Shown here: positions 4,534-29,511 of the stretch, one piece after another
Layout of the letters: every line of letters begins with the position of its first letter
Position numbering within the stretch: position 1 is the stretch's first letter
Source of the DNA: a virus
Length of the DNA stretch: 64,000 nucleotides
IMG/VR virus record: IMGVR_UViG_3300046003_004989
Location: 1-64,000 of that record
Strand: one strand, 5' to 3'
The notes under the pieces: model-generated
Seen by the model: the letters and a program-made list of their open reading frames with translations, nothing else
What the model was told of the DNA's origin: nothing
Database searches by the model: none
Position numbers and translations under genes: made by a program

Positions 4534-4548
4534 AATTCGATATTTTTG

Positions 4549-4622
4549 TGGAAGTAACGGGACTCGAACCCGTGTTCTCGCAACTTCAGTCGCTTTATTC
4601 TATCCTATTAAACTATACTCCC
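4549..4622 (-). tRNA. tRNA-like gene, anticodon arm abnormal
   Basis: Read on the minus strand it has a 7-bp acceptor (GGGAGTA with TACTTCC), a D arm (GTTT...GAAT with GG in the loop), a 5-bp T arm with TTCGAGT loop, and discriminator A. CCA is not encoded in full. The anticodon arm does not fold normally. The best pairing is GCGAC with GTTGC around a four-base TGAA loop, whereas the register with T33 (CTGAAGT, anticodon GAA, Phe) leaves the stem unpaired. The amino acid is therefore not assigned. Confidence 0.7.
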
Positions 4623-4789
4623 ATTGTAGTTTTTGTAATGCCCCCAGAACTACTAACTGTGCTAACCTACGATTTAGAATGTAGTGTGCATATCATTAAT
4701 CATATCCGAAGATAAGAAACCTAAACGGTGTAGTTGGCCGACATTGCCTTCGATACGTACAAGTGCACTTGCAGAGGTCTTTCTGATAG
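4623..4789 (-). other. 167-nt spacer between the two tRNA genes
   Basis: No open frame and no complete cloverleaf. A segment near 4665-4690 can form a CTAC/GTAG stem around TTCTAAA, reminiscent of an anticodon arm, but the acceptor and T arms are missing. It may be a decayed tRNA or simple processing spacer. Confidence 0.3.
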
Positions 4790-4860
4790 TGGCCAATGAG
4801 GGAATCGAACCCTCATCCTCGGTTTTAGAGACCGGTGTTCTGCCGTTGAACTAATTAGCC
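4790..4860 (-). tRNA. tRNA with CTA anticodon (candidate amber suppressor)
   Basis: A complete 71-nt cloverleaf on the minus strand: acceptor GGCTAAT/ATTGGCC, D stem GTTC/GAAC, anticodon stem CCGGT/ACCGA (outermost pair C-A mismatched), loop CTCTAAA with T33 and A37, 4-nt variable loop, T stem GAGGG/CCCTC with TTCGATT, discriminator A. Positions 34-36 read CTA, complementary to UAG. CCA is not encoded. Amber stops are rare in this window (I found four: genes ending at 7851, 28446, 29042 and 43575), so readthrough of a few genes is conceivable. The charging amino acid cannot be told by eye. Confidence 0.85.
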
Positions 4861-8671: not shown

Positions 8672-9553
8672 TTAGATGACTAATTCAGCAACTCCTACAG
8701 ATCTTCCGTTTTCATATGAGTAGAAACCTTTTCCACTTTTCATTCCTAAATTCCCTTGAAGAACCATTAGCTTAAGTAGAATGGAAGACTCATATTTGTT
8801 ATCATCAAGTCCTTCTTGCAATTCATTCATGATGCTTAGACAAACATCTAATCCAATATAATCTGCAAGTTGTAGTGGACCCATTGGATGAGCACAACCG
8901 AGTTTCATTGCAGTGTCTATTTCATTTACACCTGCAACTCCAGTATGTAGAATATCAATAGCTTCATTTAACATTGGAATGAGTAGTCTATTAACGATAA
9001 AACCTGGAGAGTTCTTTACATAGACAGGTGTCTTATCTAATTGAGTACATAGATGAGTAATTTCTACTGCAGTTTCAATTGATGTAGCTTCACCTAAAAC
9101 GATTTCAACTAACTTCATAGATGATACTGGATTGAAGAAGTGCATTCCGATGAATCTTGATCTGTGATTTGTTCGATGTGCTAAAGCATCAATTGAAAAC
9201 GATGAAGTGTTAGTAGCAAATATACAATCGGTTTGTGCATAATCTTCGATCAAAAGAAACAGATCCATCTTCTTCCTGAAAACCTCAGGGATAGCTTCAA
9301 TGACTAAATCGGCAACTCTAATAGACTCATAAGTCGTATCGAATGATAGATTTTCTTTGATGGTTTTTGCTTCTTCTTCGGTAATTCTACCTTTCTTAAG
9401 CGATGTTGCAACTGTTGAATTGATAGATTCTTCAGCAGCATTAATGGATTTCTCTTTAGGATTGATTAGAGTTACATCAAACCCTTTTGATGCAAATAGC
9501 TGAGCAATACCTTTACCCATTTGACCTGAACCGATAACTGAGATGTTCTTCAT
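8672..9553 (-). CDS. 3-hydroxyacyl-CoA (3-hydroxybutyryl-CoA) dehydrogenase
   Basis: This 293-residue protein is full length for the short 3-hydroxybutyryl-CoA dehydrogenase family (about 280 aa). It has the Rossmann motif GSGQMGKG (residues 8-15), the ATNTSSFSI substrate segment, the GMHFFNPV motif with catalytic His, the KNSPGFIVNRLL helix and the C-terminal GP.QLADYIGLD dimer domain. It interconverts 3-hydroxyacyl-CoA and acetoacyl-CoA using NAD(H). This is unusual in a phage. Together with the acyl carrier protein (14673) and thioesterase (52984) it suggests redirection of host acyl metabolism, which is inference. Confidence 0.93.
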   Translation of the reverse strand: MKNISVIGSGQMGKGIAQLFASKGFDVTLINPKEKSINAAEESINSTVATSLKKGRITEEEAKTIKENLSFDTTYESIRVADLVIEAIPEVFRKKMDLFLLIEDYAQTDCIFATNTSSFSIDALAHRTNHRSRFIGMHFFNPVSSMKLVEIVLGEATSIETAVEITHLCTQLDKTPVYVKNSPGFIVNRLLIPMLNEAIDILHTGVAGVNEIDTAMKLGCAHPMGPLQLADYIGLDVCLSIMNELQEGLDDNKYESSILLKLMVLQGNLGMKSGKGFYSYENGRSVGVAELVI

Positions 9554-9994
9554 TTATAGTAGTTTGTGCCAAAACTTATTTGGCAGATGAATGTTTCGTA
9601 CATATGTGCAATCTCTAAATAGAGGTGCTACATCTTTTGGCTTAAGCCCTGCTAACCCACAACCTACTTCCGTAACAAGGAATATGAGATGTGGATTGTC
9701 TTTTGCGAATTGAATAAAATCATCTACAAAAGGTTTAATTTCTGTTATTGTAAGAGTTCGACGAACCGATGCATCTTTTGTAGGTATTCCGTAAGTTCGA
9801 CCTTGCAGTCCAGCTCCTTGACCCCATTTAGCACCCCAACCCAAAGCAGTTTTTGCTGCACCCTTTCCATGTCTTCCAGAAAGGTTTGAGCCGAATACGA
9901 AAATCTCACCTTCAGATAATTTCTTTATTTCATCAGGTGTGATGCGATTATACACATCATTATCGTGCTGACGCATCAATTCATCTAGGCTCAT
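9554..9994 (-). CDS. Macro-domain-like phage protein (A1S_2505 type)
   Basis: The sequence GEIFVFGSNLSGRHGKGAAK and then GLQGRTYGIPTKD, with a later TEVGCGLAGLKPKDVAPLF, matches the A1S_2505-type family found widely in phages. It resembles macro domains in its Gly-rich ligand loops. Macro-type folds bind or hydrolyse ADP-ribose derivatives; the actual ligand of this family is not known to me. It overlaps the exonuclease gene by 14 nt and abuts the dehydrogenase. Confidence 0.8.
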   Translation of the reverse strand: MSLDELMRQHDNDVYNRITPDEIKKLSEGEIFVFGSNLSGRHGKGAAKTALGWGAKWGQGAGLQGRTYGIPTKDASVRRTLTITEIKPFVDDFIQFAKDNPHLIFLVTEVGCGLAGLKPKDVAPLFRDCTYVRNIHLPNKFWHKLL

Positions 9995-10655
9995 CTTTTA
10001 TCAAATTATAAAGTTTCATATTCCATTTAGCATCAATTAAAGCATCATGTTCACCTTCTGGATCAGGACAATTGTTATATTTCCATTCTGCTCCAAGACC
10101 TCGTTCAACCATCATTTGTTTAAGGTCCATACAGAAGTAAGGGAATCCTTTAGGTAAATCGATCATTCTACCGAACAACCAACAGAAAACTACCCAATCA
10201 TAATCAGCAAAATAACCGTAAAAGTCTACAGGAAATTTATGCTTAACTTCTTCCCAATTAGCAATTGCATTAGGATCGTTTATTCCAGATGTCTTATAGA
10301 CATATTCGGTAACTTCCTTTGCAATTCTAGCTCTAGATTTTCCGTGCCAATGAAGTAGATTTTTCAATCCACTCTTATTCCATTCCATTAGATCTGGATG
10401 ATATGTCTTACCGTAAGTTCCTTCATATGAGAGTAACTCTTGATAGACTTGATATAGGACGTTATCTCTTAACCATTCGTTATTCCATGCTGCATCGACA
10501 TCGAATTCATTACATATTGCATAGTAAGTTTCGTCATTTTCACTAACAATACCAATCGAGATCAGCTCAATTGTATCTACTTTATCAATGGTAATTCCTA
10601 AGAATTTTATAGGCTTTTTCCTTTCATGGAATTCAGTGTCTAAGAAGTATTTCAT
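9981..10655 (-). CDS. DEDD 3'-5' exonuclease/exoribonuclease-like protein
   Basis: The N-terminus MKYFLDTEFHE carries the DxE metal-binding pair, later Asp residues occur in DYDWVVFCWLFG, and the C-terminus has EGEHDALIDAKWN, the final H...D motif. This is the layout of the Rv2179c-type 3'-5' exoribonuclease family (PF16473). 224 residues is about one whole domain. Likely substrate is RNA or DNA 3' overhangs in the cytoplasm. It ends with TGA inside the next gene. Confidence 0.85.
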   Translation of the reverse strand: MKYFLDTEFHERKKPIKFLGITIDKVDTIELISIGIVSENDETYYAICNEFDVDAAWNNEWLRDNVLYQVYQELLSYEGTYGKTYHPDLMEWNKSGLKNLLHWHGKSRARIAKEVTEYVYKTSGINDPNAIANWEEVKHKFPVDFYGYFADYDWVVFCWLFGRMIDLPKGFPYFCMDLKQMMVERGLGAEWKYNNCPDPEGEHDALIDAKWNMKLYNLIKDEPR

Positions 10656-12216: not shown

Positions 12217-12225
12217 GTTATATGA
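12217..12225 (-). promoter_or_regulatory. CATATAAY box upstream of the NADAR gene
   Basis: Minus strand TCATATAAC, 16 nt before the NADAR ATG, overlapping the end of the capsid-like gene. Confidence 0.4.
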
Positions 12226-13063
12226 GCCCTTTTGCCAATTGGATTTGTTGAGTGTAATAGATTGTATTAGACTCAGGAGTTGCAAGTATTTGTGAATGTT
12301 CGATCAGAGAATAAGTCTTTGCCATATGTTCAGGGGATTGAGTCTCAATCACTTCTCGATTAACGAAGAAATAATGTACACCTGCATCAACTTCAGTTCC
12401 ACTGAATCCATAAACGATAGTCTCATCACTAAATGGCAAATATCTATTAGCATAAACTGTAATTCGATTACTGAGAACTCCAATCTTTTCTATTTCACCT
12501 GCAAAAGTCTTCTGTTCGAGTGGAGCATGAACAAATGCAGGATGTTCTTGCAAAGCAGAAGCAACTCTTGAATTCACTACAATAAAATTATACGAACCCT
12601 TGTAATTATATTTGTAACCTTCACCTGCAGATCGATGAATGAATGCGCCTAAAGTATTGATGTCATTGAACTTCGGTAAAAATCGATAACCAAACCATTT
12701 TGTGATGAGATTCTTCAACCAAGCAAATCTGATAGGTTTGATAGATGGATTCTTTGAACCTAACTCTCTCATCATTTCATAGATCTTAATTTCATTTTGA
12801 GTATCTAACTCAACTTCCATTTTAGATCTAGCATAATCTGCTAGTCTCAATCCAACAACTGATAACTGTCTTTCTTGTTCGTTAGTCACTCGAAGAGTCA
12901 TAGTTTTCATATCAGTCTTATAGACCATCTTCATCTTTTCAAGTTCGATATGATCGAATTGAGTTTCTTCTTTCTTATGAAGAGTTTCCATCGGCTTTAG
13001 GTATTCAAAAATACCTTGCATTGTCGGCTTCTTATGAGTTCGAATGATATTGAGTAGTCTCAT
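12218..13063 (-). CDS. Capsid-like protein, possible gp23-type C-terminal domain
   Basis: The C-terminal third (about residues 165-255) reads VGVLSN-like: IGVLSNRITVYANRYL, then VYGFSGTEVDAGVHYFFVNR. This is reminiscent of the T4 gp23 major capsid end (agRykVyvd...VGykG..e.DaGiyYapY). The N-terminal part is helical. At 281 residues it is about half of gp23, so it may be a head vertex, a capsid paralogue or a derivative. No cleavage signal of the capsid-targeting type is visible. Evidence is by eye only. Confidence 0.45.
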   Translation of the reverse strand: MRLLNIIRTHKKPTMQGIFEYLKPMETLHKKEETQFDHIELEKMKMVYKTDMKTMTLRVTNEQERQLSVVGLRLADYARSKMEVELDTQNEIKIYEMMRELGSKNPSIKPIRFAWLKNLITKWFGYRFLPKFNDINTLGAFIHRSAGEGYKYNYKGSYNFIVVNSRVASALQEHPAFVHAPLEQKTFAGEIEKIGVLSNRITVYANRYLPFSDETIVYGFSGTEVDAGVHYFFVNREVIETQSPEHMAKTYSLIEHSQILATPESNTIYYTQQIQLAKGLI

Positions 13064-20830: not shown

Positions 20831-21697
20831 TTATGCGTTTTCTTGTTCGAGGTTTTCGATGTTATTAACAACTTTTCCAGGAAGTAAATCCAAAATGAAT
20901 TTCTTGTCCTGAGAGAAGATTGGAGTTTCTACCGTTTCCCATTTAGTACGACGGATAGTTTGAGTCGGATCAATCACATGAGTTTTGTTATCATTAGCAA
21001 ATTTAAAGTCTTTTGCCAGATAAACATGTTCAACTTTTGTAATTACACCACCTCGTTTTTCTCGATAAGTGTAGTCATTCCAATTAATGCCTTTTTGAAA
21101 AATCATCTCTTGCATTTCATTAGTTTTCTTACCGTTTAGCTCTTTTGGAGAGTACATAGATTGTGCAACAGAAGAGATAGAGTTTCTAACTGCATCTTGC
21201 TGTCTCCAGATGAAGTAGTTAACAACCTCATCAATGAATGGAATCTGAAATACTCGAGCATCAAACATTGCTAGTTTGAAGTTTCGGATATCATCGTGAT
21301 CTAACATATCTTCGTAAATCCAATCGGCATGGGCTCGAGCTATTCGGAGTTGATTGAATTTTGCAGTTGCCATAGATGCAGCTACAGATGCCATTTTTTG
21401 AAGATTGTTATCGAACCAAGCATGAGTGCCTAGGTCGTCAAAGTCAGTAAGTACTAAAGAGATTTCATCGGATTGAACATATCCGAGTTTAGCACCTTGA
21501 ATGTTTTTGCAGAGGAAGGCAGTCGTTTCATTCATGTCTTCGATTAAACCTGCATCAAAAGGTCGTTTAAGTCCTTTCGTATAAGTGTGAAATGCTTTAC
21601 CATCAATACGGATGATAGTAAATGTTCTTCGAGGGAGCATAGTACGAGTTCTGTTTTCGTAGTAGTCCTTCATTCTGTCGCCTAATGTGTCGATCAT
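20831..21697 (-). CDS. Thg1-like tRNA-His guanylyltransferase (3'-5' polymerase)
   Basis: 288 residues with the Thg1 palm: IIRIDGKAFHTYTKG (metal Asp32) followed by RPFD and the second site GYVQSDEISLVLTDF (Asp77-Glu78). The C-terminal region has ARVFQIP...YFIWRQQDAVRNSI and a GINWNDY segment, typical of the family. Thg1-like enzymes add nucleotides to the 5' end of tRNA using 3'-5' chemistry and repair truncated 5' ends. A phage copy points to tRNA repair during infection. Confidence 0.93.
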   Translation of the reverse strand: MIDTLGDRMKDYYENRTRTMLPRRTFTIIRIDGKAFHTYTKGLKRPFDAGLIEDMNETTAFLCKNIQGAKLGYVQSDEISLVLTDFDDLGTHAWFDNNLQKMASVAASMATAKFNQLRIARAHADWIYEDMLDHDDIRNFKLAMFDARVFQIPFIDEVVNYFIWRQQDAVRNSISSVAQSMYSPKELNGKKTNEMQEMIFQKGINWNDYTYREKRGGVITKVEHVYLAKDFKFANDNKTHVIDPTQTIRRTKWETVETPIFSQDKKFILDLLPGKVVNNIENLEQENA

Positions 21698-25247: not shown

Positions 25248-26258
25248 TTATTTTAGTGCTACTAACCAAGTTAGTTTTGCTTTATAGTTATAAATTTTTA
25301 GACTCAAGTTTTGCATCCATTTAGAAAGACCTCTCCACTTATAAGCGAAATTCAATCTTCTAATCATTGCTTTATGCGATGTGGGTGTACATTTAAGTAA
25401 ACTAGGCATCCATTCAATATCATCTGATGCTACGATAGGAACCCCAGCAGTTACGAAATCTGCAGTTACAATATTGAAAGATTCAGAAAATGAAACCTGC
25501 ATACCAATGTCCATTTTAGATGCTGTATGTAAGAATTCTCTATGTTTCATCCAAGGATGTTCGATTAAATCATGTGGAGAATTATCGAATAGAGCTTTTA
25601 AATTCTTTAGAACATTATCACCTGATTGCTCTACTCTAGATGAATTGACGTGGAATCTTAGTCGTTTTCCTTTTCTTTCTGCAAATTCAATTGCTGCTAA
25701 AGCTTGCTGATAGTTATTTTTCATTGGACGGATTGCTCCAAAGCATCCAATATCAATTATAGTCTTTTTATGCTCATATACTGGTGAGTGGAATTTCTTA
25801 GCATGATATATATTTGGCAAAAATACAAATTTTCCTCTAGGAAAAGCCGCATGCAACTGTTCGGTTAGCTCTTTCGTATTAGGAGCAATTATAATGTTAG
25901 GATGTTTGATTGTAGTGTATTGTTGAATCCATCTTGTAGCAAGACCTTCATTAGCAAGAAATGGAGCTTTCGAGTGTATACGAATTATCCATTTTCTTTT
26001 TTTGTGACGGTCAATTTTAAGAAGTTCATCAAATTTAGCAGGTGGAACCCATAAAGCTTCGATGATAACTACATCGGGATTGAATTCAGTTACAACTCTG
26101 TCTATTGAATTAGAGTCGGGAATAGGGGTAAGAATTGCATCGAAACCTGAGTCTCGAAGGAAATTTGCAACAAATGAGGCCGAGTTGAATAGACCAGAAG
26201 TTATGCCGTAAGAGTCTTTAACTCGATCACAAGTAATGAATTGAATTCTTTGTGACAT
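25248..26258 (-). CDS. Glycosyltransferase (GT-B, GT4-like)
   Basis: 336 residues. The C-terminal half has the donor-domain features IDIGCFGAIRPMKNNYQQAL and then SFSESFNIVTADFVTAGVPIVASDD (the E.F.....EA...G.PvV-like element). N-terminal Rossmann-like region (VVIIEALWVPPAKF). Probably adds a sugar to a host or phage surface glycan or to modified DNA. The second domain end is slightly short. Confidence 0.8.
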   Translation of the reverse strand: MSQRIQFITCDRVKDSYGITSGLFNSASFVANFLRDSGFDAILTPIPDSNSIDRVVTEFNPDVVIIEALWVPPAKFDELLKIDRHKKRKWIIRIHSKAPFLANEGLATRWIQQYTTIKHPNIIIAPNTKELTEQLHAAFPRGKFVFLPNIYHAKKFHSPVYEHKKTIIDIGCFGAIRPMKNNYQQALAAIEFAERKGKRLRFHVNSSRVEQSGDNVLKNLKALFDNSPHDLIEHPWMKHREFLHTASKMDIGMQVSFSESFNIVTADFVTAGVPIVASDDIEWMPSLLKCTPTSHKAMIRRLNFAYKWRGLSKWMQNLSLKIYNYKAKLTWLVALK

Positions 26259-26416
26259 TGATGAGTTGGTTTTTTATATCTATCTATCATAACGGAAAAA
26301 ATGACCTCTATTGCATATTTTTCTCTAGTAGACAATCTAGTTAAAAACACACTAAAGTATCAAAAACGTAATATAGAGATTACAAATACATACAGTCAAG
26401 CATATCAAATGAAAAA
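26259..26416. other. Intergenic stretch, no convincing gene
   Basis: About 158 nt between the glycosyltransferase start and the Ro-like gene terminator. A plus-strand open frame (26301-26492) crosses the terminator and enters the neighbouring gene antisense. A GATA-type microrepeat precedes the glycosyltransferase start. A leader or promoter is expected here, but no consensus box is found. Confidence 0.5.
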
Positions 26417-26438
26417 AGAGGACCCTTTCGGATCCTCT
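26417..26438 (-). terminator. Intrinsic terminator after the Ro-like gene
   Basis: Nine-pair stem with one G-U (26417-26425 with 26430-26438), GAAA loop, followed by TTTTTT on the minus strand. Confidence 0.9.
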
Positions 26439-26460
26439 TGTGTTGAATGGCTGATAAAGA

Positions 26461-27897
26461 TTATTGAATTGCTTCGTATCTTTCAGTGTTAAGTGCTTTT
26501 AACATAATACTTACTGGATTCATTGAGTCACCAGAAAGTACTGCTTTCAAAATAGAAGGTGAGAATCCACTAATTAAAGCAGTATTTTCATCTTTAGATT
26601 GAACTGGGAAGTTGTTATGACGAGAACAAAGATTCCAGAAAACTACTTTTGGTAATTCATAACCTGATTCTTTGTACTTGTTTGCAATCATTTGGATTGC
26701 AGAAGATCTTCCATCGATAGCAGAGTTAAATTCCATATCTGACATAATCAAGATACAAGTTGGCATTTCGTTCGCTGGAACGTTATGTTTTGTTGCTTGA
26801 TCTAATACCATACGGAATGTAGCTTCAAGATCGGTTGACATACCCCAATCTGCTCTTTGCAATTGTTGGTAACGAGCTTTAAGGTCGCCTTTCAAATATT
26901 GCAATTGTGGACGAGATGAGAATGTTACGAATGCATCTTGGAAAGGACCTACATTTCTTTCAGAAATATAAAGACCTAATGAGATACAAACATCCATTGC
27001 AGTTGTCATTCCTGAAACAGCAGTGGACATTGATCCAGAGACATCACATACAGGAAGTACTCGTTCTTTCGAACCTTCCATGAAGTTAGGTAGAGATTTC
27101 CATTGTTCAGATGCCAAAGTTTGGTCACCTCTCTGAATAGTCTTTAAGATATCGTATGGGAATACGGCACCTGCATTTACCTTAGCTTCACCTTTCACTA
27201 AAGATGCTTTGTAAGTTTCGAAACCAGAAGGATCATTCTTAGCGAATGCTTTTGTATAACGAGACATTGCAACTGAAGGAACGTGTTGGTAGTTAATGTT
27301 AGCAAATTCCTTTGCACACATTTTTTGTTCAACTACTTGAGTTTGTTCAACCAACATTTTACGGAAGTCTTTTGGAGTCATTCTCATTGCTACTCTAACT
27401 TTGTTAGCAATAGCTTTTTTATCAGCACCAACTTTTCCACCAGTTCTTGGCATCCACTTAGCAAGTAAGCCATTACCTTCTTGAAGATTTTTCACAATCA
27501 TAGCGATTGCTGCATCTTCTACTGGAGTTCCGAATGTTACGAAAACGTCATCCCAACGACCATATTCGGCAATCAAGTGAATGTTATCAATAACTTCAGA
27601 TGGATAATTAGTTGAAGCATATTTCAACAATGTACGAAAAGCTTCTCTTTCACCGGCTCCACCTCTTACGTCTCTACCCCAGAACATCATCTTACGAGTA
27701 AGTAATGCATCTTCAGCATGAGCATGTTCGAATTTACCGATCAAGCGCTGTTTACCATCTTCTGTTTTCATTTGGTTACGAACTGCTCCCATAATGAAGA
27801 ACAAGTCTAGACAACCATTCAATGAAGAAGAGTTAGTCACCATTCCATTTTCGGTGTAAGTATCACCTGTACGCATTGCATCAATTAGCTTTGTCAT
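26461..27897 (-). CDS. Ro60-like protein: DUF2828-type helical domain plus vWA
   Basis: 478 residues. Helical N-terminal region with MFWGRDVRGGAGEREAFRTL (residues 71-90) and AEYGRWDDVFVTFGTP, the DUF2828 signature. C-terminal von Willebrand A domain with MIDAS motif DVSGS (285-289), Thr355 and Asp387 (IMSDME). This is the same arrangement as TROVE/Ro60: a helical repeat ring plus vWA. Ro proteins bind misfolded RNA and Y RNAs. The kinship of DUF2828 with TROVE is my inference. It is preceded by an array of structured repeats and followed by a strong terminator, so the two may form one transcription unit. Confidence 0.85.
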   Translation of the reverse strand: MTKLIDAMRTGDTYTENGMVTNSSSLNGCLDLFFIMGAVRNQMKTEDGKQRLIGKFEHAHAEDALLTRKMMFWGRDVRGGAGEREAFRTLLKYASTNYPSEVIDNIHLIAEYGRWDDVFVTFGTPVEDAAIAMIVKNLQEGNGLLAKWMPRTGGKVGADKKAIANKVRVAMRMTPKDFRKMLVEQTQVVEQKMCAKEFANINYQHVPSVAMSRYTKAFAKNDPSGFETYKASLVKGEAKVNAGAVFPYDILKTIQRGDQTLASEQWKSLPNFMEGSKERVLPVCDVSGSMSTAVSGMTTAMDVCISLGLYISERNVGPFQDAFVTFSSRPQLQYLKGDLKARYQQLQRADWGMSTDLEATFRMVLDQATKHNVPANEMPTCILIMSDMEFNSAIDGRSSAIQMIANKYKESGYELPKVVFWNLCSRHNNFPVQSKDENTALISGFSPSILKAVLSGDSMNPVSIMLKALNTERYEAIQ

Positions 27898-27928
27898 TGT
27901 TTATATTGTTTAAAAGTTGTTAAAAAAA

Positions 27929-28378
27929 TTCAGAGTGTGCTTTGGTCAAAATTAAAAGGTTTGAGTTTGTAAAGTTGCTGTATACACTCTTTGTATTAAA
28001 AGTTCAGGTAGAGGTTTTGCTATTTCCAATAATTGCTTTTAGTAAGTTGCTGTATTCTACCTTTAATGTGTTAACAAATTTTCAGGGTGACTTTCTGTTT
28101 AATTCAAATTTGGCTGAGTTGTAGAGAAAAGTTGCTGTATGCACCCTTTAAATAAGTTTCAGATTGGCTATTTATATTTTTAGAAGACCTATAGAAACTT
28201 CCATCATGTTTTTTAATTGGTAATGAACCCAATCATCGTGTTTTAAATTGGTAATGAACCAACCGTCATTTGTTTTGAATGTGACGAAACCATTGTATTG
28301 CTTGTGAGAGCCCGAAGGTTTTTACAAGCGTTGCTTATCATAGTTTTTGTATGGTAAGTTTGCTGTACCCAATCTTTA
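27929..28378 (-). repeat. Array of four structured units with covarying closing stems
   Basis: Each unit has TTCAG plus a 6-7 nt arm, a spacer, then AGTTGCTGTA(T), the complementary arm and a T run (plus-strand view). The arms are: AGAGTGT 27932-27938 with ACACTCT 27984-27990; AGGTAGA 28006-28012 with TCTACCT 28056-28062; AGGGTG 28084-28089 with CACCCT 28142-28147; AGATTGG 28161-28167 with CCAATCT 28369-28375. TTCAG repeats at 74, 78 and 77 nt. Arm sequences change but stay complementary, indicating selected secondary structure. On the minus (likely RNA) strand each unit reads AAAG-arm-(A)TACAGCAACTT-spacer-arm-GAA. The array lies in the leader of the Ro-like gene. Confidence 0.85.
28168..28368 (-). 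pseudogene. Insert in unit 4 with a start-less open frame and 31-bp repeats
   Basis: The spacer of the fourth unit is about 200 nt, against 43-52 in the others. It holds a tandem 30-31 bp repeat around 28200-28290 (ATTGGTAATGAACC seen twice, a third copy degenerate). On the minus strand a frame of about 49 codons (GFVTFKTNDGWFITNLKHDD...) ends with TAA and has no start codon, preceded by an in-frame TAA. It may be a gene remnant or coincidence. Confidence 0.35.
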
Positions 28379-28445
28379 TTATATTTTCAATGAACTGTTT
28401 TGGTTATTGTTTAGATTTTATGTAGCTGAATTTTGAAAGTTTCAA
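28379..28445. other. Leader end, 67 nt
   Basis: AT-rich stretch between the stop of the PD-(D/E)XK gene and the repeat array. No box or hairpin is recognised in it. Confidence 0.3.
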
Positions 28446-28844
28446 CTAAATAATAATTTTTTCTAAAAAAGTGTAAGTACCGTTATCATACTTGAATATG
28501 ATATAGTATTTAGACTTGTTCCAATTACCTGTTCTTATGCGGTAAAGGTCGTTTTGAACCGATGGTGCATTTGAACTGTAAATGTTATATGCTTTGACTT
28601 CAATGAAGTTTCCTTCTGAATCAATTAAATCGTGATAGATATCAGAAGATAATCTGAAGTCGTAGTTTTCTGTTAACCAAACTTCTAATGTCTTTCCTTG
28701 TCTAACTGCTGATTTGATAGCTTCTAACGTTCTACCTTTTCTTGCTCTATCAGATTCAAATAACCTCTTTGCTTCATGTTCTATTTCTCTTTCTAACAGA
28801 TCTACATTTTTAATGTCAGATGCTGTGAATTTAGCATTATTCAT
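28446..28844 (-). CDS. PD-(D/E)XK-like nuclease
   Basis: Start at MNNAKFTASDIKNVD, whose ATG overlaps the upstream TAA. Residues around 80-105 read SDIYHDLIDSEGNFIEVKAY, the D...ExK core of restriction-type nucleases, followed by a beta strand YYIIFKYDNGTYTFLE. 132 residues, one domain. Ends with TAG; readthrough by the CTA tRNA would add about 14 residues. Lies upstream of the hairpin array and Ro-like gene. Confidence 0.65.
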   Translation of the reverse strand: MNNAKFTASDIKNVDLLEREIEHEAKRLFESDRARKGRTLEAIKSAVRQGKTLEVWLTENYDFRLSSDIYHDLIDSEGNFIEVKAYNIYSSNAPSVQNDLYRIRTGNWNKSKYYIIFKYDNGTYTFLEKIII

Positions 28845-29082
28845 TAAGGAGTGATTGTAAGTATTGAATACGTTCACTCACTGCTGAATCAGCTGAAAAT
28901 CTTGATAGCTCTTTAATAGATAGCTCAATTGCTAATCTGCTATAAACTGCTTGTACTTCATCCATTGAGATAGATGTCTTCCAATCACATTCTTCACAAA
29001 TGTTATCTACCCATCTAGCGTAATTTTTCTGTATCTGTTTTCTAGGATTTGTTACTTCCAAATCTCTGTTGGTATCGCTCAT
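28837..29082 (-). CDS. Hypothetical protein (81 aa)
   Basis: A helical acidic small protein (NPRKQIQKNYARWVDNICEE). Overlaps both neighbours, so it is tightly coupled. Unknown. Confidence 0.65.
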   Translation of the reverse strand: MSDTNRDLEVTNPRKQIQKNYARWVDNICEECDWKTSISMDEVQAVYSRLAIELSIKELSRFSADSAVSERIQYLQSLLNE

Positions 29083-29476
29083 AATCGAATAAGGTTTGAC
29101 GGATTCTTTCTCTGCCTGCTGGATTCATAGAATGAACCAAACATTCAGGTAATTCGATAGACACATCAATACAAAACTGAACAAAGAATTTAGCTGAATC
29201 CAATCCAGTTTTTTCTTTGAATTCGATTGCTTTGTTATTGTAAGCATCTACCCCATGATACATAGCTGGATCGTAATGTTCGTCTGCTAAGTCATGGTCA
29301 AATGAAACCAATTCAGGAAATTCACCTTCTGCCCAACGACTAAGAATAGTAGAGACAAATTCGTCATGAGTTCTTGCAACAACCCATTCACGAGTTCCAT
29401 ATCTTGGATCGTGTAAGTATGTTAAGCACTCTCTCGGCTCTCTAATATCGTCTAAAAATAGACTGTAGGTTTTCAT
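29042..29476 (-). CDS. cREC-type receiver-domain protein (cyclic-phosphate processing)
   Basis: Start at MKTYSLFLDDIREPREC; upstream Met codons lie very close to a CATATAAC box. Receiver-like strand LFLDDIREP (residues 5-13), then WVVARTHDEFVS and PELVSFDHDLADE match the cREC_REC family named for cyclic-phosphate processing in RNA repair systems. 144 residues. Ends with TAG. Its neighbours are the nuclease, the hairpin array and the Ro-like protein, which supports an RNA-processing module. Confidence 0.75.
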   Translation of the reverse strand: MKTYSLFLDDIREPRECLTYLHDPRYGTREWVVARTHDEFVSTILSRWAEGEFPELVSFDHDLADEHYDPAMYHGVDAYNNKAIEFKEKTGLDSAKFFVQFCIDVSIELPECLVHSMNPAGRERIRQTLFDYERYQQRFGSNKS

Positions 29477-29502
29477 ATTCATGATGTGATTTTTCATTAT
29501 AA

Positions 29503-29511
29503 GTTATATGA
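29503..29511 (-). promoter_or_regulatory. CATATAAY box upstream of the cREC gene
   Basis: Minus strand TCATATAAC about 27 nt before the chosen ATG. It follows a 98-nt gap with no gene (29498-29595), so it is a good candidate promoter for the RNA-processing unit. Confidence 0.5.

Follow-up and report, generated by a model that had tools for sequence, protein, structure and literature searches.

Virus record IMGVR_UViG_3300046003_004989 carries a gene for a Ro-like protein, preceded by a non-coding stretch with repeated structures, and the question raised by this locus is which of the surrounding features belong with that gene. The window analysed here, meaning the whole stretch of DNA under study, comprises bases 1-64000 of this 144,480-base record; a Gp23-like major capsid match at 12218-13063 fits a tailed phage, and no near DNA relatives of the window were found among the phage records. 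A previous annotation made from the letters alone (the sequence-only reading) had placed the Ro-like gene in a linked RNA-processing module with a cREC receiver protein, a small protein, a nuclease and structured repeats. As described below, our results point to a different partnership: at a probability of roughly 80%, the Ro-like gene would, with the four elements preceding it, encode a Ro-type ribonucleoprotein.

The Ro-like gene encodes a predicted Ro-fold protein of the DUF2828 branch

The product of the Ro-like open reading frame (ORF) matches phrog_850 (named 'RNA-binding protein') with an E-value of 4e-146, and Pfam recognises in it DUF7788 and DUF2828. The Pfam family TROVE (PF05731) was not among the families at E ≤ 1 for this protein, which is classed with the DUF2828/DUF7788 branch. 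An AlphaFold model obtained with 31 aligned proteins as input reached a predicted local distance difference test (pLDDT) score of 89.3 and a predicted template modelling (pTM) score of 0.89. In a Foldseek search with this model each of the 10 matches at E ≤ 1e-3 was a Ro/TROVE protein (Ro60, E 1.4e-7), and VIA gave a Z-score of 23.1 over 420 residues to Ro60 (1yvp), compared with 9.4 for the best non-Ro match, which covered the vWA part only. The predicted architecture is a ring of HEAT-like helical repeats and a vWA domain with metal ion-dependent adhesion site (MIDAS) residues. The MIDAS motif of vWA domains consists of DxSxS, T and D, and the corresponding D285, S287, S289, T355 and D387 are invariant in the 31 aligned Ro-like proteins. 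Both the phrog_850 match and the predicted Ro60 fold bear out the Ro-like protein of the sequence-only reading, and the model leads us to predict a Ro fold for it and to place it in the DUF2828 branch, outside TROVE. The family is common: the window protein has matches in 682 of 50,697 phage records, and DUF2828 was confirmed in at least 552 places in bacterial and archaeal genomes. Among the 60 phage matches listed, the names given are mostly hypothetical or RNA-binding protein. Phages with the gene include mio and radambza, which infect E. coli K-12 MG1655.

Four stem-closed elements precede the gene

The 548 non-coding bases ahead of the Ro-like gene hold the same design four times over, each copy with a closing stem of its own, 6-7 bp long (E1 to E4, Table 1). 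The plan of an element is a stem strand of 6-7 bases starting with A-G, then 3-4 bases ending in TA, the hexamer CAGCAA, an interior, the complementary strand and a G. The four stems are all unlike, and each pairs with its own partner; the closing stem of E1 is conserved in the nearest relative (locus L001). The sequence-only reading was right that structured RNA lies beside the Ro gene, but its description as hairpins was rejected, as what is conserved is a stem that spans a long interior. The E1 interior holds two near-identical GGTTCATTACC hairpins, which by eye only look like a degenerate T arm.

When the entire 144,480-base record was searched in pieces, strict elements were found in this array only. 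Four loose pattern matches and one match of 23.0 bits to R1, a covariance model of the element, elsewhere in the record were taken as chance, and so was an H/ACA snoRNA match (20.2 bits vs. a gathering score of 130). Neither ARAGORN nor Rfam detected tRNA genes in the array.

Table 1. Features of the Ro-like locus, in window coordinates.
Feature	Position	Strand	Evidence or remark
Intrinsic terminator 3' of Ro gene	26416..26439	-	just beyond the range of the sequence-only reading
Ro-like protein, 478 aa, DUF2828 + DUF7788 (predicted Ro fold)	26461..27897	-	Pfam, PHROG, invariant residues, AlphaFold, Foldseek, VIA
Element E4, 59 nt	27932..27990	-	stem AGAGTGT/ACACTCT, ATACAGCAA, then GAAT; R1 46.1 bits (training member)
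Element E3, 57 nt	28006..28062	-	stem AGGTAGA/TCTACCT, ATACAGCAA, then GAAC; R1 47.1 bits (training member)
Element E2, 64 nt	28084..28147	-	stem AGGGTG/CACCCT, CATACAGCAA, then GAAA; R1 45.7 bits (training member)
Element E1, 215 nt	28161..28375	-	stem AGATTGG/CCAATCT, GTACAGCAA, 192-nt interior, then GAAA
Nuclease-like ORF, probable PD-(D/E)XK; neighbour, not conserved part	28446..28877	-	motif and weak fold matches
Small ORF; neighbour, no function assigned	28837..29082	-	ORF list
cREC domain protein; neighbour, not conserved part	29042..29497	-	PF20274, 7e-16
CATATAAC promoter-like box, upstream of cREC	29503..29510	-	CATATAAY pattern

The element recurs at DUF2828 loci of phages, bacteria and archaea

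Ro loci were sampled from viruses (56, and 80 more, some on the same contigs), bacteria and archaea (80) and annotated phages (16). With the window included, the total is 233 loci, whose proteins fall into 168 clusters (78 viral, 15 phage and 75 genome); clusters merge proteins with more than 60% shared 4-mers, and related clusters are not independent. Over 73 loci, the 98.4 kb of sequence flanking Ro contained 81 strict elements, vs. 11 in the other 1.34 Mb (some sitting just past the 700-nt flank limit), and shuffled sequence gave 0.4 per set. CAGCAA was the commonest hexamer to follow a perfect 7-bp stem in the flanks (77 vs. 1.25 expected, 93 clusters). With the stem ends left unconstrained, these CAGCAA stems numbered 157 vs. 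5.2 expected in genome loci (65/75 clusters), 83 vs. 3.9 in viral loci (49/78) and 26 vs. 1.3 in phage loci (10/15). Nine other hexamers gave 0-5 flank matches per group, with the exception of CTGCAA, which had 13 flank matches in viral loci and is probably a variant of the CAGCAA core. Bare CAGCAA also followed the gene strand, the ratios of gene to opposite strand being 221:30 in genome, 141:40 in viral and 36:4 in phage loci. Altogether, an element lies near the DUF2828 gene in 63 of the 93 viral and phage clusters and in 66 of the 75 bacterial and archaeal ones.

The 117 elements of cluster representatives have 93 distinct 5' stems. Inner pairs 4-7 use all four Watson-Crick types, as does pair 3, where two of them are rare, and stem length plus gap equals 10 nt in 106 elements. 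In an alignment of 52 short elements (A2), 99.5% of cells are paired and the covariation score is 0.952, vs. at most 0.20 with the partner strand slid. The A2 rows were selected for pairing, and these pair counts therefore lean to the stem: 52 of 61 short elements were used, and L114, L110, L108, L128, L112, L080, L210, L201 and L064:2401, five of them with six-pair stems of bacteria, were omitted before counting. For this reason the independent support comes from R1 searches outside the training set, which, together with the comparison of flanks with the rest, the other hexamers and the shuffles, are the fair tests.

R1 found 17 matches at the 58 loci missed by the pattern, all on the gene strand and 16 of them within 480 nt of Ro. 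At the 80 bacterial and archaeal loci it gave 72 matches, again all on the gene strand and 71 of them upstream of Ro; matches were present in 38 of the 73 genome loci that had supplied no training row. At 19 TROVE-type Ro loci R1 had no match at E ≤ 1, and YrlA, the bacterial Y RNA family, was matched in three of the five such loci scanned. The TROVE loci contain ten seven-pair CAGCAA stems in 132 kb, on both strands and mostly lacking the stem ends of the element. Over ten whole genomes (150 candidates scored per genome), R1 matched in 2/5 DUF2828 genomes vs. 0/5 TROVE genomes; TROVE itself was matched in one of five DUF2828 genomes. The element is thus specific for DUF2828-type vs. TROVE-type Ro loci. 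We conclude that the elements are putative Y-RNA-like partners of the DUF2828 branch of Ro proteins, which they would bind.

Interiors vary, and in some relatives resemble tRNA

Interior length is mostly 25-46 nt and reaches 284 nt, and several copies with unrelated interiors can share a locus. In some relatives the interior is a permuted tRNA-like structure with T arm, acceptor hairpin and D arm. The YrlA model matched such loci in Klebsiella phage KP13-26 (L066; 40.1 and 32.5 bits), mycobacteriophage MiniLon (L059; 37.7 bits) and L047 (34.0 bits), as well as in the bacteria Anaerocolumna (L107; 53.6 bits) and Blautia (L122; 41.4 and 37.4 bits), all these scores (32.5-53.6 bits) being under the Rfam gathering score of 69. 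Bodies in ordinary tRNA order were found between CAGCAA and the returning stem, upstream of Ro, at seven bacterial loci (L098, L110, L114, L121, L136, L139 and L146), with nine tRNA-model matches of 41.8-53.2 bits; this plan is unlike the permuted YrlA tRNA mimic.

An enclosure test on 24 tRNA and YrlA matches placed 14 inside element stems. The ten left outside were seven further tRNA matches from those bacterial loci, the second YrlA match of L122, L047 and L038. The L047 element was found by the pattern search and scored as unenclosed because the script counts G-U pairs beyond the stem. At L038:4597-4711 the tRNA-model match (49.2 bits) is stretched by a middle insertion bearing a TACAGCAA hairpin. 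T-arm matches occurred within 75 nt of control anchors in 14 of 204 cases, so that a single T-arm match is weak and the tRNA and YrlA model matches carry the point.

A proposed Ro-type ribonucleoprotein and its alternatives

The Y-RNA-like interpretation follows from the predicted Ro fold, the one-strand linkage, the stem covariation and the specificity for DUF2828 vs. TROVE loci. Y RNAs bind the outside of the Ro ring, gate the access of misfolded RNA to it and tether PNPase or other partners. By analogy, each element would be a small RNA, or would be cut from a common transcript, with its ends paired into a short stem whose length is fixed but whose sequence is free. The unpaired (U)(A/U)CAGCAA, approximately 10 nt from the start of the stem, may be the mark read by a DUF2828-branch Ro protein. 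The interior would then be a changeable second module, short in most cases, long in E1 and often a tRNA mimic in relatives. In the manner of bacterial Y RNA, such an RNA could cover the outside of the ring or gate it, and tether clients such as a nuclease or a tRNA-handling enzyme; the ring itself would accept 3' ends from damaged or misfolded RNA. The phage would supply several RNAs per Ro protein, and its benefit might lie in RNA turnover, tRNA protection or a decoy function, all of which are possible.

Four observations weigh against this interpretation. The minimum free energy fold of the 548-nt stretch is ordinary (z -1.21, with 11/100 shuffles equally good); the evidence for the elements is comparative. 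An Rfam scan detected no tRNA-like domain and no YrlA match in the window elements. No element lies near Ro in 30/93 phage and viral clusters and in 9/75 genome clusters. Finally, in Listeria phage CKA15, considered below, the only highly transcribed non-coding region given with coordinates in the available part of the paper (PMC12282133) is a ROOL locus and not the CAGCAA array.

As the elements stand directly ahead of the Ro start codon in the window, with the 3' end of E4 about 35 nt from it, and as nearly all bacterial R1 matches are upstream, we considered whether they are cis-acting leaders, in which case Ro would bind its own mRNA via the CAGCAA stems and control its translation or stability, and no free Y RNA would exist. 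However, 45 of the 117 elements sit downstream of the gene, some just ahead of a terminator-like hairpin, which argues against a pure leader role, and a leader would not need several copies per locus with unrelated, partly tRNA-like interiors. We find this explanation unlikely, but leader and Y RNA roles could coexist.

A second alternative is the proposal of the sequence-only reading itself, namely a single RNA-repair operon made up of Ro, cREC, nuclease and RNA and directed against defences that cleave tRNA or other RNA. The minus-strand order is cREC, small ORF, nuclease-like ORF, the non-coding stretch, Ro-like ORF and intrinsic terminator; these features share a strand, and a search for terminator-like sites on the minus strand turned up none between them. 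The cREC protein (by its Pfam match), the small ORF, the closing terminator and the CATATAAY box were all confirmed (Table 1), and the Thg1 said to lie elsewhere in the window is present at 20831-21697 (3.8e-28). In a study of jumbo phages (PMC7824862) it is proposed that cREC opens 2',3'-cyclic ends and that Ro/TROVE serves as an RNA-repair platform. The PD-(D/E)XK assignment of the third neighbour is plausible by motif and weak fold matches, but Pfam gave no match at its cut-off. D86, E93 and K95 are invariant in its three homologues (three rows only); PD-(D/E)XK nucleases make up most of its Foldseek and VIA matches, every one of which is weak (best E 8.7e-3, Z at most 7.6), with none reaching E ≤ 0.001 or Z ≥ 8.

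It is the linkage that was not supported. For this, profiles grown from the window's own proteins were searched within 5 kb of Ro in the 93 phage and viral clusters, with a motif check. A cREC gene turned up in at least 2 clusters, those of the window and of its nearest relative L001. The small ORF was likewise seen in the window and L001 (at most 2/93 by these profiles), and the nuclease-like ORF in at least 3 clusters. These counts are lower bounds, since in an annotated Enterococcus phage (locus L072) a phrog_1479 (cREC family) gene 1.3 kb upstream of Ro was missed by the profiles. A search of viral contigs with the cREC protein returned four pattern stretches and no relative. No RNA ligase was matched among the ten neighbour ORFs scanned, and the ligase-type enzyme and pol-beta transferase that the sequence-only reading had placed elsewhere were not among the 25 of 33 Pfam families listed for 63 window ORFs. 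With cREC and nuclease this rare beside Ro, the genes of the RNA-processing module show no conserved linkage, and a single repair operon is improbable. Judged by comparison across loci, the conserved unit is Ro with its putative RNA elements, smaller than the module proposed.

The tRNA-like interiors within Ro stems of relatives, and the tRNA genes beside 9 of the 16 annotated phage Ro loci (8 of 39 viral loci scanned, 39 of the first 56 collected), would suit a further alternative, in which elements of the tRNA-like kind, stabilised by Ro, serve as decoys for toxins that cleave tRNA or enzymes that modify it. Most elements, including all those detected in the window, lack a tRNA-like part, and elements occur in bacterial genomes too, so that we give this explanation little credence. 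That the repeats are DNA elements, such as origin, recombination or packaging sites, is suggested by a short motif repeated in a non-coding stretch and is hardly credible, as they are strand-locked to the gene, their stem pairs change together and their interiors are RNA-like.

Returning to the proposed ribonucleoprotein, one can tentatively go further and imagine the DUF2828 proteins of phages, bacteria and archaea as a second large Ro system with an RNA code of its own, in which the free stem with CAGCAA might be a universal handle and the interior an exchangeable plug-in, so that one Ro protein would serve several clients and phage sets might redirect RNA decay or protect tRNA. If this is true, the plug-ins in one genome would range over short loops, permuted tRNA mimics, ordinary-order tRNA bodies and long structured domains. 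The six-letter mark would make the RNA partners of a common protein family predictable from sequence and testable at the bench, including in laboratory E. coli phages. Because the handle and effector halves vary independently, they would offer a comparative handle on what Ro proteins and Y RNAs do.

Other features of the window

CATATAAY occurs at 18 sites in the window, 18/18 on the minus strand, vs. 8.15 expected over both strands; a count of about twice chance with a one-strand bias is like that of a phage promoter box. Two tRNAs lie at 4789-4860 and 4548-4622, one of them with a CTA anticodon, which ARAGORN assigns to Pyl; of the 142 ORFs of at least 120 aa over the record pieces, only 3 stop at TAG, and the CTA tRNA is a possible suppressor. 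The Pfam tallies for the 63 ORFs scanned include translation initiation factor IF-3 (N and C domains), NADAR and tRNA_bind. At 8672-9553 there is a two-domain 3-hydroxyacyl-CoA dehydrogenase (1.5e-57), odd for a phage, and at 9981-10655 an Rv2179c-like 3'-5' exoribonuclease (7.8e-8), a possible Ro partner.

Three relatives have ROOL matches, at L058:968-1519, L251:2569-3120 and L110:644-1218 (86.0, 90.1 and 310.4 bits, respectively), each adjoining tRNA genes and some 1-2 kb upstream of a DUF2828 Ro gene; in phage CKA15 this ROOL locus is the top transcribed non-coding region.

Comparison with known systems

That phages carry Ro proteins and Y RNAs is already known in outline. Chen et al. 2014 reportedly describe Y RNAs in the vicinity of Ro60 for many bacteria and phages. 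No description of the CAGCAA element was found in the literature searched or in Rfam release 15; an earlier account is possible in Chen et al. 2014 or in reviews. In the literature searched, the papers using the term DUF2828 deal with plant subjects, as far as titles and the beginnings of abstracts tell.

For Listeria phage CKA15, an Rsr-like protein and an abundant upstream non-coding RNA, suggested to be Y RNAs, have been described in the available part of the report (PMC12282133). The Rsr-like protein is the DUF2828 homologue CKA15_055. In record OR088597.1 the region named by the authors (26,236-26,727) falls on a ROOL match of 90.1 bits (gathering score 99.1), so that their putative Y RNA region is, on the portion of text accessible, the ROOL locus and not the CAGCAA elements. 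The genome has 133,943 bases in the paper vs. 137,077 in the record, and the gene tags CKA15_059-061 fix the region. Three CAGCAA elements (R1 44.4, 41.3 and 28.8 bits) lie in the gap before the Ro gene; two elements of P100, a close relative of CKA15, are in the R1 training set.

A Ro60-like protein has also been reported in a Vibrio phage (PMC7765460), and the jumbo-phage study (PMC7824862) lists Ro/TROVE, cREC and Thg1 as RNA-repair functions. The window has cREC, Ro and Thg1 in common with such clusters, but in the relatives examined there is no conserved cREC-Ro linkage.

With Ro60/TROVE proteins (vertebrate Ro60, 1yvp and 2i91; D. radiodurans Rsr, 2nvo; Thermus phage phiLo Ro60, 9l5y) the window protein is predicted to share the two-domain fold over about 420 residues, a MIDAS-type vWA domain and an adjoining RNA gene, at an identity of only about 11-16%. 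Like bacterial YrlA (RF02553), the elements lie beside the Ro gene with their ends paired, and some relatives have the permuted tRNA-like half. Unlike YrlA, whose Ro-side sequence as printed in the Rfam match lacks CAGCAA, the window elements have no detected tRNA-like part, and among relatives many interiors are short and some hold an ordinary-order tRNA body. With Y RNAs in general they have in common a same-strand gene beside Ro and 5' and 3' ends that pair into a conserved helix.

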